Positions 16,010 through 33,152 of a DNA stretch of 33,244 nucleotides are shown in pieces (the first letter of the stretch is position 1; each line of letters starts with the position of its first letter). The notes below the pieces were generated by a model, which was given only the letters and a program-made list of their open reading frames with translations, ran no database searches and was not told where the DNA came from. The stretch comes from an uncultured Verrucomicrobiales bacterium (GTDB taxonomy: Bacteria > Verrucomicrobiota > Verrucomicrobiia > Limisphaerales > Palsa-1400). Where the stretch lies: NCBI GenBank assembly GCA_903898185.1, contig CAIUEN010000081.1:1-33244 (forward strand). Direction: 5' to 3'. A program made the translations under genes and the position numbers.

Positions 16010-18762
16010 TCACGCCAATGCTTTTGGGTTTCTTATGACTCGAACAATGGCATCCCTAAGAATCGGCAACTCATAAGGTTTACTCAAGAATGCTTGGGGC
16101 AGTTCGGAGTGGTCGCCTGCCATGACTTGGTCCTCGCCGTAGCCACTGGCCAGAATTACCGGGATGTCGGGCGCAAGCTTGCGCAAAGCCGTCAATGTGG
16201 CCCAGCCATTCATGCGAGGCATGGTCAGATCACACAGGACGCAACCGATTTCGTACTGGTGCTGCTTGAACACCTCCAACGCTTGAATGCCGTCCTGCGC
16301 CTCAAAAACCGTAAACCCAGATCGCTTGAGCGCAAGCATTACTGCTTTACGCAAAATTGGATCGTCATCGACCACAAGCACAGTGCCACTCCCTGCCGTT
16401 TGCGGAGCTTGAACCAACGGCACCGGCTTCTGGGGAATTGCTTCCGCCGAAACAGGCAAGAAGATCCTAAAAACACTCCCGTTGCCTGGTTGACTCTCCA
16501 CTGTGACGCACCCGTTGTGCGCCCGCACAATCCCCAGAACTACAGACAACCCCAAGCCGCGACCAATGAATTTGGTGGAGAAAAACGGGTCGAATATCTT
16601 TTCGATATCCTGTTCCGCTATTCCGCATCCCCCGTCGGCCACCTCGAGACAAGCGTGGTCCGAGTCTTGGAACTTGCAGTCAATTGGAAAACGGTTGACA
16701 GCAGGAATATCCGTTGCATGAACGGTCTTTACGGTCAGGCGAATGAAACCCCGCGCCTGCCCCATAGCCTCCCAAGCATTGGTAAGCAGGCTGGTTAGAA
16801 TCTGTCGGATCTGGTTTGCGTTGGCGAAGATGACCGGACCTTTAGATGGCAGATCGGTTTCCAAAACCACGCTCTGTGGCATGACGGGGCGCAGCATGGG
16901 CAGATGGCTCTGGCAGGTTTCGGCAACATCCAATGGTTCACGCTTGGCAGCGGTTTGTCCAAGGTAGGTCAGCATCAGGCTGCTCAGTTCCGCCGCCTTG
17001 TGGGCCGATTGCATGGCTTCGGTGAGGTTTGCGACTGATCCCAAATCTGAGGGCAGATCGTTAAGGGCCATCTGCAGGTTCATCATCACCGCTTGGAGCT
17101 GGTTGTTGAAGTGATGGGCGATGGCCCCGGCCATGCGGCCCAGACTTTCCGATTTCTGGAGTTGGCGGTTTTGAAACTCAAGTTTCTTCTGCTCCGCTTC
17201 CAACTGCTTGCGCTCAGTGATATCGATGGTATAACCCGCCAGCAAAGTTTTACCTCTCTGTACTATTGGATACTTGATTGTGGTGTAGTTGCGGCCATCA
17301 TAATCCTCATCAAGTTTCAGCAAGTCACCCTTTTCAACGACCGCCCAGTCATCAGCGGTCATCCTTGCTGCGAATTCAGACGGAAACAACTCTGACATGG
17401 TCTTGCCCTGTATATCCAAACCCGCAACACCAATCATTTGTTTAAAATTGTCACTGGCTTGAATTACGCGACTTTCGGTCGATGTCACATCCTTGATGTA
17501 GGCGTAGATGGGTGAGTGACGTATAAACAGCGAGAACAACTCACGGCTATCCCTGAGCGCTTCCTCCGCCTGCTTGCGATCTGTGATGTCACTCACGCTA
17601 CCAATAAGAGCCAAGGGTTGCCCCTTGGGATTTCGCATGACGGAGAACAGATCTTCAAACCAACAATAGTGCCCATCCTTGTGCTTAAAACGATATTCTA
17701 TTCGATATGCCTTGCCGTGAGCGCCGGATATGGATTCGGCAATCAGCCGTTTGGTTTCAGCCAAATCGTTCGGATGAATCAATTCCAAGATGGCTTCAAG
17801 TGACAAGGACTTGATCTCGTCCGGAGTATAACCGGAAATCCGGGCAAAAACGGGGCTCAAATAATTATAGGTGTTGGTTTGCAGATTGCGTTTATAAGAC
17901 GCATCCTGCGAATTCTCCAGCACCTCCCGAAATTGCTCCTCGCTCTGGCGCAGTTCACGCGTGCGCAGTTCCAGCAGGTCCTGCACACGCAGCAAAGCGC
18001 GTTCACGGCGAGCCCGGGCACAGAGTTCGATGATATAATCGGGCCGGAACGGTTTCTGCAAGTAAGCGGCGGCACCCTTCTTCATCCAATCCAAGGCCAG
18101 TGCGGGTTCGGTGTCACCGGTCACCATCAGGCAGACGCAGTCGGGCCGCATAGCGCGAAACTCCACAAGCAGGGCATCGCCCAATTGGTCGGGCAGGTGG
18201 TAATCGAGCACAGCCACGTCGTAGGCGGTCTTCGCGAAGGCTTCGGTAGCCGCCTTGGCAGTGAGTGCCATTTCGGCATGGTATCCGTGGTTCTCGAAGG
18301 CATCCATGAGCACCTTGCAGAATTCGGCGCTGTCGTCCACGATCAGGATGCGTAATGGGTGTCTGACTTGCTCACCGTTCAAGATCGCTCGAACCTGTTC
18401 GCAGAAGCGTCCGCCGTCCACCGGAGATGGCAGGAAGGCTTCGGCTCTCAAGTCGGCGGCGATTCGGGAAGACTGGTCGCCAGAGAAGGTGGCCGAAACC
18501 ACCAAGATGGGGACTTGATTGAAAGCGGCATATTCGGGCGAACGCAGCAAACGGCAGAATTGCCAACCGTCGATGCCCGGCATGTAGAGGTCGGTAACGA
18601 TCAGGGACGGGACGTCGGCACAGGAGGTCAGTGCCATCAGAGCATCTTCAGCCCTTGTAAAGGCGAGGGGTTCCAAACCCGACTTGCGCAACAGCCCAGA
18701 CAACAGCTTGAGTTGAGTGGAATCGTCATTAACTACGACGGCAAATGGGGAAGATGGATTCA

Positions 18763-18763
<1 letters not shown>
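16010..18763 (-). CDS. Hybrid sensor histidine kinase REC-REC-PAS-PAS-HisKA/HATPase-REC
   Basis: 917 aa; two N-terminal receivers, PAS (NTYNYLSPVFARISGYTPDEIKSLSLEAILELIHPND), H-box SLGRMAGAIAHHFNNQLQAVMMNLQMA, FDPFFSTKFIGRGLGLSVVLGIVRAHNGCVTVES, terminal REC VLVVDDDPILRKAV. Start overlaps the stop of the upstream B12 kinase (TAATG). Confidence 0.92.
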
Positions 18764-22593
<3,830 letters not shown>

Positions 22594-22604
22594 GTTACTC
22601 AAAT

Positions 22605-22772
22605 TCAAATCTGCTCAAAGTGGCGAGTCTCCGTCTCACCGACGACCACTTTTATGCCTTTTGGAATGCCCTTGAATTTGCCAAGGGCGGCGAACGGAGC
22701 GGCGGTTGCCACGTCAGTGCGGTTCGACGTGAACGCGTCGCTCATAATTGAGTCGGTTTCGGTCTCTGACAT
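22605..22772 (-). pseudogene. In-frame-deleted remnant of the ABM-like gene (55-aa mini-ORF)
   Basis: Reverse-strand translation MSETETDSIMSDAFTSNRTDVATAAPFAALGKFKGIPKGIKVVVGETETRHFEQI*; both ends align with the ABM protein at 22926..23300, and the middle 67 codons are missing. Confidence 0.88.
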
Positions 22773-22925
22773 CCTTCGATCATAAGGTGTGGCTTTATCT
22801 TATATCAAGCCTTAACACGCATATGCGCTGTTTGTTCCGCTGGCACGCTTTCGGCACACTTTCGGTCGCTGCCGTTGCAAATTTTAGCCTTGATAGAATA
22901 CAAAGCCACGCTTCATAATCTCCTT
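22773..22925. promoter_or_regulatory. Divergent regulatory region between the inverted kinase units
   Basis: Upstream blocks are conserved in inverted orientation: CTTGATA-n6-AAAGCCAC precedes both ATGTCAGAGACC starts. A perfect palindrome CGCATATGCG (22818..22827) and tandem 11-mers GGCAC[G/A]CTTTC (22842..22863) lie in the core. Confidence 0.55.
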
Positions 22926-23300
22926 ATGTCAGAGACCAAAACCGACTCAATTATGAGCGACGCGTTCACGTCGAACCGCACTGACGCGGCAACCGCCGCC
23001 CCGTTTGTCGCCCTAAGCAAATTCATCGTTGCAAATGACAAGACCGCCGAGGTCAAGGAGGCATTTCGCCATCGACCGCACTTGGTGGATGGCAAACCCG
23101 GCTTTTTACGCATGGAAGTGCTCAGCCCGCTCGACCGACCTGAGGAAATTTGGGTCGTCACTTACTGGACCGATGCCGAGAGCTTCAAGCTCTGGCACCA
23201 CAGCCATCTCTACCAGCAGGCGCACAAGTGCATTCCCAAAGGCCTGAAGGTGGTCGCCGGTGAGACGGAGATTCGCCAGTTTGAGCAGATTTGCTGCTGA
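22926..23300 (+). CDS. ABM-superfamily (antibiotic biosynthesis monooxygenase / HmoA-IsdG-like) protein
   Basis: 124 aa from ATG 22926 (start supported by alignment with the left remnant); FVALSKFIVANDKTAEVKEAFRHRPHLVDGKPGFLRMEVLSPLDRPEEIWVVTYWTDAESFKLWHHSHLYQQAHK has the ABM ferredoxin-like pattern. Confidence 0.8.
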   Translation: MSETKTDSIMSDAFTSNRTDAATAAPFVALSKFIVANDKTAEVKEAFRHRPHLVDGKPGFLRMEVLSPLDRPEEIWVVTYWTDAESFKLWHHSHLYQQAHKCIPKGLKVVAGETEIRQFEQICC

Positions 23301-23305
23301 GAAGC

Positions 23306-25891
23306 ATGAACGACTTGAACCGTCAGGTCAGCGATGCCCTTGGCAGTCAGCGTGCCGCGCTTGCCGAGCGCATGGTGTCGCTGGAGTTTGTCCGCCATCC
23401 GGAGCTCGAACGGCGCTATGGGGAGGTCGGCTGCGGAAAATGCCTTGAGGACGCTGGTTATCATCTCATCTATCTGGCGCAAGCGATCGCAGTGGATAAA
23501 GTTGAGCTGTTCGTCGATTACATTGGCTGGGCTAAAGTTATGCTCGCCAAACACGGAGTACCGGAAGTGGATCTTGCCGGTATGCTCGAAACCATGAAGG
23601 AATCTTTGCGGCTGGAGCTGCCGTCGGAATTCAGCCCGATGGCCTGCGATTACCTGCGCGCCGTACTCAGGCAATTGCCGCAAATGCCCGATGACGTGCC
23701 ATCCTGCATGGCAGAACTCAACCCGCTCGCTCCGCTGGCCTGGCAATACCTGCAGGCGTTGCTCCGAGGCGAAAGGCATGTTGCCAGCAAGCTCGTCCTC
23801 GACACAGTCCAACACGGCACCCCTGTGCGCGACCTGTACCTTCATGTTTTCCAGCCTGCCTTGTATGAGGTTGGACGCCTATGGATGGTGAACCAGATCA
23901 GTGTCGCCCAAGAGCACTATTGCACTGCCGCCACACAGCTCATCATATCGCAACTCTATCCCTACATTTTGGGAGGAGAAAAAAAACGAGGCACGCTTGT
24001 AGCCACCTGCGTTTCGGGGGATCTTCACGAAATTGGCCTCCGCATGGTGACTGATTTTTTCGAGATGGACGGCTGGCAGACCCATTACCTCGGCGCGAAC
24101 GTGCCAACATCGAGCGTGGTTCAGATATTGATCCAATATGAGGCCACCGTCCTGGCCATTTCTGCGACTATCACTTACCACGTCCGTGCGGTCGAGTTGC
24201 TCATCGAAGCGGTGCGCCGCGCGCCCGAATGCCGAAGCATCAAAATCCTGGTTGGCGGCTATCCGTTCAAAGTTGCGCCGGACCTATGGAGAAAAGTGGG
24301 AGCGGATGGTTTCGCCGCTGATGCCCAAGAGGCCATCATTCTGGCCAACCGTCTCACCAACCAGCAAGTTGCCGACGTGAAGACGGGAGAAGCCAGTTCA
24401 GTGGGCGGAGGAGCCACGGAGCCAGAGGCTCCTGGCACCGGCAGACCAGAGGTCTGCCCCACAGAGGCGGATCTGCCCAAAGTCATTCTTGTGGCAAAGG
24501 ATCCGACCTCATTTGTTCAAGCGATCAACCTTCCCGATCACCACCTTTATGAGGAAATAACTCGCACCAACAACGAACTGGCAAACCTCCAGCGTGAGGT
24601 GGTCTGCAAGAATTCCGAGTTGGCTGCCGAGCAAGAGAAACTTAAGAGAAGTGAGCATCGTTATCGCAGCCTGAGCGCATGCTCGCCCCTTGGCATTCTT
24701 GAAATGAACGCTGATGGTCGCTGCCTTTACACCAATCCACATTGGCAAGTCATCACGGGGCTGACGGCGGATGAATCTTTGGACGACGGCTGGCAGCGCG
24801 TCTTGGATCCCCGCGACGCGACGACTTTCCTGAACGAATGGAATCAGGCTCTGCGCAAGGGCTTGGAGTTCAGCCGTGAGATTCGCTTGGTGAGCACGAG
24901 CGGTAAGCAGCGTTGGGCACAAGTTCGTTCGCGCTCCATTCTTGCCGAGCATGGCGAAGTTGTCGGTCAAGTCAGCACTGTCGAGGAAATTACCGAGCGC
25001 AAGCAGGCCGAGACCGCTCTCGAAAATGCGCACAAGGATCTTGTTAACCTCTCCCGTCAAGCGGGCATGGCGGAAGTGGCCATCAGCGTGTTGCACAACG
25101 TTGGCAACGTGCTCAACAGCGTCAGCGTTGCCTCATCTTGCATGGCCGACAATCTCCGACGGTCAAAATCTGGAAACCTGTCCAAAGTCGTCAAGCTGAT
25201 GAACGAGCACGAGACGGATTGGGGGCCATTCTTCACCAGCAATCCCAAAGGCAAACTCTTGCCCGGCTACCTCGCGCAACTGGCTGGCCACCTGGCCGGG
25301 GAACAGTCCGTCCTGCTCACGGAGCTTGCTGGTTTGCAAACGAATATCGAGCACATCAAGGACATTGTGACGATGCAACAGAGCTATGTCAAAGTATCCG
25401 GCGTATCAGAAATACTCAAGGTAAGCGACTTGGTCGAAGATGCTTTGAGGATGAGCGCGAGCATTTTGGCCCGTAACGATATTCGAATCATCAAGGAATT
25501 TGAAGAAATCCCTTCCCAGACGGTTGAAAGGAACAAGGCGCTGCAAATTATGATCAACTTGGTGCGCAATGCGGAGCAGGCATGTGACGAATCCGGCCAT
25601 CGGGAAAAGATCCTGACCCTTCGCGTAACCAATGGACGTGATTGCTTCCGCATCGCCGTCAGCGACAACGGCATCGGCATCCCCGTTGAAAATCTGTCGC
25701 GCATCTTCGGCCAAGGCTTTACCACCAAGAAAAACGGCCACGGTTTCGGCTTGCACAGCAGTGCGCTGGCAGCAAAAGAAATGGGCGGTTCGCTAACCGT
25801 TCACAGTGACGGCCCGGGCTTGGGCGCCACCTTCACGCTGGAATTGCCTTATGCCTTACCCGACGCAGCAGAACTCAAATTCCAAGACTAA
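23306..25891 (+). CDS. B12-binding sensor histidine kinase: cap/B12-binding - linker repeat - PAS - HK/HATPase (no receiver)
   Basis: LWMVNQISVAQEHYCTAATQ (W-x9-EH), SGDLHEIGLRMVTDFFEMDGWQTHYLGANVP (DxHxxG), PAS; H-box-like AGMAEVAISVLHNVGNVLNSVSV; HATPase VRNAEQAC...VSDNGIGIPVENLSRIFGQGFTTKKNGHGFGLHSSALAAKEMGG. The track begins at TTG 23291; ATG 23306 is preferred. Confidence 0.93.
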   Translation: MNDLNRQVSDALGSQRAALAERMVSLEFVRHPELERRYGEVGCGKCLEDAGYHLIYLAQAIAVDKVELFVDYIGWAKVMLAKHGVPEVDLAGMLETMKESLRLELPSEFSPMACDYLRAVLRQLPQMPDDVPSCMAELNPLAPLAWQYLQALLRGERHVASKLVLDTVQHGTPVRDLYLHVFQPALYEVGRLWMVNQISVAQEHYCTAATQLIISQLYPYILGGEKKRGTLVATCVSGDLHEIGLRMVTDFFEMDGWQTHYLGANVPTSSVVQILIQYEATVLAISATITYHVRAVELLIEAVRRAPECRSIKILVGGYPFKVAPDLWRKVGADGFAADAQEAIILANRLTNQQVADVKTGEASSVGGGATEPEAPGTGRPEVCPTEADLPKVILVAKDPTSFVQAINLPDHHLYEEITRTNNELANLQREVVCKNSELAAEQEKLKRSEHRYRSLSACSPLGILEMNADGRCLYTNPHWQVITGLTADESLDDGWQRVLDPRDATTFLNEWNQALRKGLEFSREIRLVSTSGKQRWAQVRSRSILAEHGEVVGQVSTVEEITERKQAETALENAHKDLVNLSRQAGMAEVAISVLHNVGNVLNSVSVASSCMADNLRRSKSGNLSKVVKLMNEHETDWGPFFTSNPKGKLLPGYLAQLAGHLAGEQSVLLTELAGLQTNIEHIKDIVTMQQSYVKVSGVSEILKVSDLVEDALRMSASILARNDIRIIKEFEEIPSQTVERNKALQIMINLVRNAEQACDESGHREKILTLRVTNGRDCFRIAVSDNGIGIPVENLSRIFGQGFTTKKNGHGFGLHSSALAAKEMGGSLTVHSDGPGLGATFTLELPYALPDAAELKFQD
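24414..24467 (+). repeat. Protein-coding double-hairpin repeat, copy C (encodes TEPEAPGTGRPEVCPTE)
   Basis: CCACGGAGCCAGAGGCTCCTGGCACCGGCAGACCAGAGGTCTGCCCCACAGAGG; same two-hairpin structure as copies A and B. Confidence 0.9.
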
Positions 25892-26293: not shown

Positions 26294-26375
26294 GGGAGAA
26301 ATTAGCGTCTCGCTAACGCTCGCCGGAGGTAGTGGCACAGGCAAGGATGCCTATGCTACCTGAAGTTACACCAAA
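26294..26375 (+). repeat. Palindromic intergenic repeat (family 2), copy 2
   Basis: GGGAGAAATTAGCGTCTCGCTAACGCTCGCCGGAGGTAGTGGCACAGGCAAGGATGCCTATGCTACCTGAAGTTACACC; flanked on the left by GGTAACTGTTTAGGT, an imperfect inverted copy of the right end. Confidence 0.85.
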
Positions 26376-26525
26376 AGATTGACAAATCTTTTTTTGAACG
26401 CTTTTCTTAACGCTTGTCCAAGAAGGCAATAGGGATTTCAGGACAATGGATGTGAATGTTTTGAACGGACTGCCTAGTTGGTGGTCCGAGTTTATGCAAA
26501 TCGTAACCATTCAGATTTCAGAGTA

Positions 26526-26546: not shown

Positions 26547-26553
26547 GGGAGTG

Positions 26554-26620
26554 GGGGAAAGTTAGCGTCTCGCTGACGCTCGCCGAATTAAGGGGCACAG
26601 GCAAGGATGCCTGTGCTACG
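26554..26620 (+). repeat. Palindromic intergenic repeat (family 2), copy 3
   Basis: GGAAAGTTAGCGTCTCGCTGACGCTCGCCGAATTAAGGGGCACAGGCAAGGATGCCTGTGCTACG; contains AGCGTC-TCGCT-GACGCT and GCACAGGCA-AGGA-TGCCTGTGC stems. Confidence 0.85.
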
Positions 26621-31694: not shown

Positions 31695-33152
31695 TTATGC
31701 CAATTTCTTGCTCATTACTCGAATAATCGCATTGCGAAGCGCTTCAAATTCAAAAGGCTTACAAAAGAATGCCTGGGGCAACTCAGGGTGATGGCCGCTC
31801 ATTACCTCGGCCTCGCTATAGCCGCTAACGAGAATCACCGGGATGTCGGCCTGAAGTTTGCGCAAAGCCGTCAGGGTGTCCCATCCATTCATGCGAGGCA
31901 TGGTCAGGTCACTAATGACGCAACGGATTTCGTTCCGATGCTGCTGGAACACCTCCACCGCTTCAACGCCGTCGTTCGCAGTAAATACCGTAAAACCATG
32001 TTGCTTGAGCCTCGCCGAAATTACTTCCCGCACCACCCGCTCGTCATCGACCACCAGCACAGTGCCAGCGTCTGCCGTTTTCGGAGCTTGGGGTACATGT
32101 GGCTTCTGTGGAATTGCCTCTATCGACAGTGGCAAGAACACCCGGAAGGTTGTTCCCCGCCCCTGTGCGCTATCCACCGTGATGCCTCCGTAGTGCGACC
32201 TCACAATCCCCAAAACCACAGCCAAACCCATGCCCCGACCGACGAATTTAGTGGAGAAAAACGGGTCGAAGATCTTTTCGATATCGTTGTCCGGAATGCC
32301 GCAGCCACTGTCCTCTACTTCCACACAGGCGTAGGCGCTGTTTTTCGGTTGCCAATCCACAGGAAAGCGGTTTATGGCTGAAATATCCGCTGAGAAAACC
32401 GTCCTGACAGCCAGTCGTATGTTCCCCGAACTGTCCTTGAGAGACTCAGAAGCATTCGTGATCAGATTGGTGATTACTTGCTGGATTTGGTTTGCGCTGG
32501 AGCTAATGGCCGGGCCGGGAGATGGTAAATTGGTTTCCCAAACTGCGCTTTCCCGTATGCCAGCCCTGAGTATAGGCAGGCTGCGACGACAAGTTTCTGA
32601 AAGATCCAGCGGTTCACGTTTGACAACGGTTTGCCCGAGGTAGGTCAGCATCAGAGTGCTCACTTCCGCCGCCTTGCTAACCGCATCCATGGCTGCGGTC
32701 ATATTTTCGAGTGATTCCGCGCTTCCGGGCAGATCGTCCTTGGCCATCTCCAAGTACATCGTCACCGCGAGTAGTTGGTTGTTGAAATGGTGGGCGATGG
32801 CCCCAGCCATGCGGCCCAAGCTTTCAGATTTATGAAGCAGCCGGTTTTGAATCATCAGCTTTTCCTTCTCAGCCTCGGCCCGCTTTATGTCGGTAATGTC
32901 CCAGTTCGTTCCAATCATACGCGATGGTTGCCCCAAGCCATCTCGCTGAACAGAGGCGAGGGCACGGATATAACGAATGGTTCCATCAGACCAAAGAACC
33001 CGAAAATCTGTGTCAAACTCCTGTTCGCCGCGCAACGCAATCTGAATTTCTTCGTCGCATCGCTGCCGATCTGCCGGATGAACCCCCGTCAGCCATGCTT
33101 GGTAAGCGCCACCGAACTGATTAGAACTTAGGGAGTTGGAAGAAATAATCAT
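31695..33152 (-). CDS. PAS - HisKA/HATPase - REC hybrid sensor kinase
   Basis: 485 aa; PAS_3-like VHPADRQRCDEEIQIALRGEQEFDTDFRVLWSDGTIRYIRALASVQRDGLGQPSRMIGTNWDITDIKRAE; H-box SLGRMAGAIAHHFNNQLLAV; REC VLVVDDERVVREV. Paralogous to the C-terminal half of 16010..18763. Confidence 0.9.
   Translation of the reverse strand: MIISSNSLSSNQFGGAYQAWLTGVHPADRQRCDEEIQIALRGEQEFDTDFRVLWSDGTIRYIRALASVQRDGLGQPSRMIGTNWDITDIKRAEAEKEKLMIQNRLLHKSESLGRMAGAIAHHFNNQLLAVTMYLEMAKDDLPGSAESLENMTAAMDAVSKAAEVSTLMLTYLGQTVVKREPLDLSETCRRSLPILRAGIRESAVWETNLPSPGPAISSSANQIQQVITNLITNASESLKDSSGNIRLAVRTVFSADISAINRFPVDWQPKNSAYACVEVEDSGCGIPDNDIEKIFDPFFSTKFVGRGMGLAVVLGIVRSHYGGITVDSAQGRGTTFRVFLPLSIEAIPQKPHVPQAPKTADAGTVLVVDDERVVREVISARLKQHGFTVFTANDGVEAVEVFQQHRNEIRCVISDLTMPRMNGWDTLTALRKLQADIPVILVSGYSEAEVMSGHHPELPQAFFCKPFEFEALRNAIIRVMSKKLA

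Follow-up and report, generated by a model that had tools for sequence, protein, structure and literature searches.

The window analysed here, a 33,244-nucleotide contig from an uncultured Verrucomicrobiales bacterium, contains two arms that form a divergent inverted duplication, 85–92% identical. The pair was examined in this one genome, a fragmented draft of 535 contigs. On the minus strand, the left arm carries a 55-codon open reading frame (22605..22772; the stub) followed by a kinase gene (18763..22593) for a 1276 aa protein with photoglobin-like, B12-binding_2, B12-binding, PAS, HisKA, HATPase, two receiver and Hpt domains. On the plus strand, the right arm carries an intact ABM gene (22926..23300; 124 aa; PF03992), for which the nearest solved folds are TT1380, MhuD, IsdG/IsdI and HmoB, followed by a kinase gene (23306..25891) for an 861 aa protein; its sensor half is shared with the left kinase and is followed by a PAS domain, after which Pfam recognises no kinase domain other than HATPase_c. 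Arm identity is 85–86% over 137–143 nt spanning the promoter and the head of the ABM gene, 88.6% over 1244 nt from the ABM tail into the kinase sensor region, and 91.8% across the PAS portion; with identity this high over these lengths, the match between stub and ABM gene is not a chance one. Divergence is patchy throughout, with 0.02–0.22 mismatches per site in most 60-nt intervals. The DNA alignment of the two kinases ends beyond about 20776 (left) and 25012 (right), past which the left kinase continues with HisKA-HATPase-receiver-receiver-Hpt and the right with HATPase and no recognised HisKA, and this loss of similarity suggests a swap of the output half.

Other repeats are present on the contig. 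A 65-bp repeat (21306-21370, 21417-21481 and 24418-24480) lies in the linker of both kinases, twice in the left and once in the right, where it is translated, and it occurs at >40 places in the genome. An 83-bp element (26294-26376, also 996-1079 and 26550-26619) has at least 40 genomic copies of about 90% identity and looks like a dispersed repeat family. Two more PAS/histidine-kinase/receiver genes (16068-17175 and 31747-32851) are 73% identical as DNA across 1.1 kb.

The best PDB matches of the kinase sensor half were the photocobilins 8J2W, 8J2X and 8J2Y and CarH-type domains. The motifs GxxW, EH, GxxH and GxxxP, reported as the signature of light-responsive B12 domains (PMC11796333), are complete in the kinases of both arms. 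For the globin domain, single kinase sequences fall below the Pfam cut-off and a profile was needed; the profile of kinase residues 1–133 matched allophycocyanins (E 1e-7) and the bilin-binding globin domains of photocobilins (E 1e-5). It placed a CLED motif (residues 46–49 of the left kinase, 22447..22458, minus strand; 23441..23452, plus strand, in the right) on the chromophore Cys motif, the bilin-attachment CxRD of phycobiliproteins. CXRD and CXQD motifs occur in both phycobiliproteins and photoglobins (PMC10151467). From the structural matches, the four B12 motifs and a globin domain with a bilin-type Cys, we conclude that both kinases are probable B12/bilin photoreceptors of a photocobilin-like kind. 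Their B12 part is ∼30% identical to that of the characterised photocobilins (SasPcob, 8J2W/8J2X; AbPcob, 8J2Y; PMC10979010), with an rmsd of 1.9 Å, and they share with these proteins the complete B12 light signature and a globin-like domain that matches the bilin domain as well as phycobiliproteins; unlike photocobilins, they have the globin N-terminal of the B12 domain, a PAS and histidine kinase output, a bilin-type Cys and an adjoining ABM gene. The B12-binding fold and motifs are also common to the CarH/LitR photoreceptors, but the kinases lack the MerR DNA-binding domain of that group and have a kinase as output. A further histidine kinase with a B12 domain, the third in this genome (L130:5150-6799, minus strand), has neither a globin domain nor an ABM neighbour.

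The sequence-only reading had described the stub as an ABM gene with an in-frame 201-bp internal deletion, retaining both ends of the protein without the 67 intervening codons. Local alignment of the arms bore this out, giving 33 matching head codons, a single clean 201-nt gap, 22 tail codons and then the matching kinase. The stub thus joins ABM codons 1–33 to codons 101–122 at a junction at 22673..22674 (minus strand), and the segment absent from the left arm corresponds to codons 34–100 of the right-arm gene (23025..23225, plus strand). The junction reads AAATTCA|AGGGCATTCC, and both gap ends in the right arm carry a 2-bp CA, which leaves the position of the junction ambiguous by 2 bp. Although the CA microhomology noted earlier is present, we discarded it as a clue to mechanism, since by our own arithmetic about 16% of junctions would have microhomology of at least 2 bp by chance, and 2 bp is too short to inform. 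The stub runs from its ATG to a TGA where the right arm has TGC, so that the final two ABM codons are trimmed; the former ABM stop position, two codons past the stub stop, remains TGA in the left arm. The frame is kept and the stub ends just ahead of the kinase ATG, as had been proposed, with a measured gap of 11 nt from the stub stop to the ATG at 22593.

The lost segment includes most of the ABM fold. In the structural model of the intact protein (mean pLDDT 81.7), strands span residues 27–35, 60–66, 74–81 and 115–120 and helices span 40–48, 84–91 and 94–98; by this model, the loss of residues 34–100 removes nearly the whole fold and leaves the first and last strands alone. W90 and H100, nearly invariant across the ABM family, are among the missing residues. 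The intact protein scores 53 bits for PF03992, and the stub matched no Pfam family, even when the threshold was relaxed. The stub therefore lacks a complete ABM domain; it probably no longer yields a working enzyme, while delivery of ribosomes to the kinase probably persists.

When bacterial and archaeal genomes were searched with the sensor half of the kinases, 80 related loci were recovered. An ABM match is present at 15 of them; 13 of these matches are full-length, one is broken by a frameshift in a draft of low coverage (L044) and one is a remnant. By record titles, the loci with an ABM gene beside the kinase span Bacteroidota, Chlorobiota, Balneolaceae, Planctomycetota, Gammaproteobacteria and Bacillota, and in 9 of the 13 full-length loci the distance from the ABM stop to the start of the kinase frame is ≤14 nt, with overlap in some. 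On this distribution, an ABM gene tightly preceding the kinase is an old arrangement. The 55-codon short form was not found among the kinase relatives, and the right-arm state matches the outgroups at most informative differing sites. With 13 full-length relatives and no short one, the comparison sides with a derived deletion rather than an ancestral short form; the intact ABM is ancestral by this comparison. Within its own genome, the right-arm gene is the sole intact copy of this ABM, and at E 1e-20 or better no other genome of the order (320 genomes) or of the phylum sample (388 genomes) contained it; given this absence, the ABM-kinase pair may have been horizontally acquired. An independent remnant occurs in Aquiflexum lacus (L031:4861-4995), in which 45 C-terminal ABM codons with a stop at the 5′ end finish 2 nt ahead of the kinase ATG; no intact ABM of this family was found elsewhere in that genome.

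Each arm has a promoter-like site, TTGATA-18-TATGAT in the left (22779..22808, minus strand) and TTGATA-18-CATAAT in the right (22890..22919, plus strand), each ending 6 nt before the ATG of the stub or of the ABM gene. Exactly these two such sites were found in the region, compared with 0.4 expected. In both arms the −10 element thus lies at the ∼6–7 nt from the start codon that marks a leaderless start, and a −10 element shortly before the AUG is a documented layout of leaderless genes (PMC12340547). We infer from the predicted promoter that the left transcript is probably leaderless, starting at or beside the stub AUG. In a 494-kb sample of the genome, with starts taken as first ATGs, −10 motifs 4–8 nt before starts were only mildly enriched (1.2% versus 0.6% per position), and Shine-Dalgarno cores preceded 23 of 218 genes, compared with 17 of 218 at a control position. 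On these counts the organism hardly uses Shine-Dalgarno signals, so that there is no evident sign of ribosomes entering strongly on their own at the kinase AUG; the left kinase AUG itself has no clear Shine-Dalgarno site. By the same token, genes free of such signals are normal in this genome, and the kinase could therefore initiate independently. RNA folding revealed no structure at the left kinase start stronger than in shuffled sequences (z 0.19) and mild structure at the right kinase start (z −1.78); with no special structure at the left start, folding gives no evident need for coupling.

The explanation that we favour, with modest confidence, is that the stub is a first cistron that delivers ribosomes to the left kinase and encodes a probably functionless peptide. 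According to this explanation, a two-gene unit of an ABM gene and a photocobilin-like sensor kinase was duplicated head-to-head, and 201 bp were then lost in frame from the left ABM gene, ending production of ABM protein from that arm; with the right-arm ABM still intact and able to act in trans, this loss would be tolerated. The stub would remain in first place on a transcript that is probably leaderless, with ribosomes loading at its 5′-terminal AUG, translating 55 codons, stopping 11 nt before the kinase AUG and re-initiating there. Of the three reading frames, only the retained one ends near the kinase ATG, the other two ending 58 and 42 nt upstream, so that an in-frame deletion would be favoured if kinase translation needs arriving ribosomes; longer intergenic gaps are known to weaken coupling (PMC2268962). 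Like the short upstream ORFs discussed in a review as serving merely to bring ribosomes to the next gene (PMC12548453), the stub is short, ends a few nucleotides before the next start and likely makes a functionless peptide, but unlike them it would have arisen by the gutting of a real upstream gene after duplication. The sequence-only reading had proposed that the stub persists either as a coupling leader or as a peptide; the predicted leaderless start, the 11-nt gap, the frame analysis and the tight junctions in relatives keep the first of these plausible.

A real rival, to which we give perhaps half the weight, is that the stub is the passive remnant of a decaying duplicate, with the kinase initiating at its own AUG and the open frame a coincidence. 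An unselected stub would be both in frame and still open with a chance of about 0.27 (1/3 in frame × about 0.8 open after 8 changes), and retention of the frame is thus weak evidence. The substitution pattern also fits decay. Between the stub and the corresponding ABM ends we counted 9.5 non-synonymous and 5.5 synonymous differences (dN/dS 0.49), compared with 33.5 and 76.5 in the B12 part of the two kinases (dN/dS 0.11); the stub value is 3–4 times that of the kinases (0.11–0.15), a contrast with a Fisher P of 0.0095 or 0.04 depending on rounding. By our own calculation, dN/dS of about 0.55 would be expected if one copy were constrained and the other free, and with a value near this the stub looks largely unconstrained. 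Because the counts are small and the N-terminal extension of the ABM protein is not conserved beyond this genome, a modestly raised dN/dS would be possible even for an intact gene. Where the family state at a site could be used, four changes were derived on the left (V28A, S31G, L109I and I118T, numbered by alignment column) compared with a single one on the right (G102C), and the stub is altered at family positions that are invariant or nearly so, including S31 and L109. The A. lacus kinase, moreover, persists beside its ABM remnant. Against the stub being a passive remnant, any transcript initiated at the one good promoter-like site has to cross the stub, whose AUG is predicted to lie at or next to the 5′ end of the message, and no clear Shine-Dalgarno site precedes the kinase AUG.

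The same substitutions argue against the improbable alternative that the stub is a selected small protein, such as a regulator, or a protein that binds the kinase or the intact ABM. In its favour, the first 60 nt of the stub differ from the ABM ORF at a single site (P about 0.014 at 10% divergence, uncorrected for the many intervals viewed). We discarded this near-identity as a sign of selection on a peptide, since arm identity is patchy along the whole length and chance or gene conversion would explain it equally well. A dN/dS near the value for one unconstrained copy, four of five informative changes derived on the left, changes at conserved positions, the lack of a family match and the survival of only the first and last ABM strands all disfavour a selected peptide, and the second half of the earlier proposal with it. 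Very improbable is an artefact of assembly or binning that produced chimeric arms or a spurious deletion, which the fragmentation of the draft might allow. The arms differ along their whole length, mostly at 3–20% of sites per 60-nt interval, and so are not one misassembled copy; the clean gap preserves the frame, and the 33-kb contig contains both arms in its interior.

The catalytic triad of IsdG-type heme oxygenases is Asn/Trp/His. The intact ABM resembles the heme degraders IsdG, MhuD and HmoB in fold and sequence, and its W90 and H100 correspond to their Trp and His; unlike in those enzymes, the Asn position is Ser31, and it is Ser in 12 of 12 relatives covering the site, so that the complete triad is absent. 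Among 66 scorable relatives, 12 of the 15 that have an ABM neighbour carry the bilin-type Cys, compared with 10 of the 51 that have none (P 3e-5, relatedness not controlled), and this association hints that the ABM protein may supply or process a bilin. A canonical heme oxygenase (PF01126) was not found in this genome, nor in 7 of the 9 genomes that were tested among those with the ABM-kinase pair, which likewise counts toward such a link. Counting against it are the replacement of the catalytic Asn by Ser, two relatives that have an ABM gene without the Cys, and the one genome that keeps the kinase with a mere ABM remnant. We found no paper linking ABM proteins to photocobilins in the literature searched, which covered few subscription journals. 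We therefore offer only tentatively the possibility that the ABM protein makes or processes a bilin specifically for the photocobilin histidine kinase, the left arm being a natural knock-out that would keep ribosome delivery and depend on the right-arm ABM for any bilin that it uses.

As gene decay, the deletion is ordinary. Its value lies in the natural comparison that it sets up within one genome, between two near-identical sensor halves, one with an ABM gene and the other with a stub. This pair of arms opens two questions to direct test: can a first gene, once gutted, live on as a coupling device, and does the ABM protein work for a B12/bilin photoreceptor?
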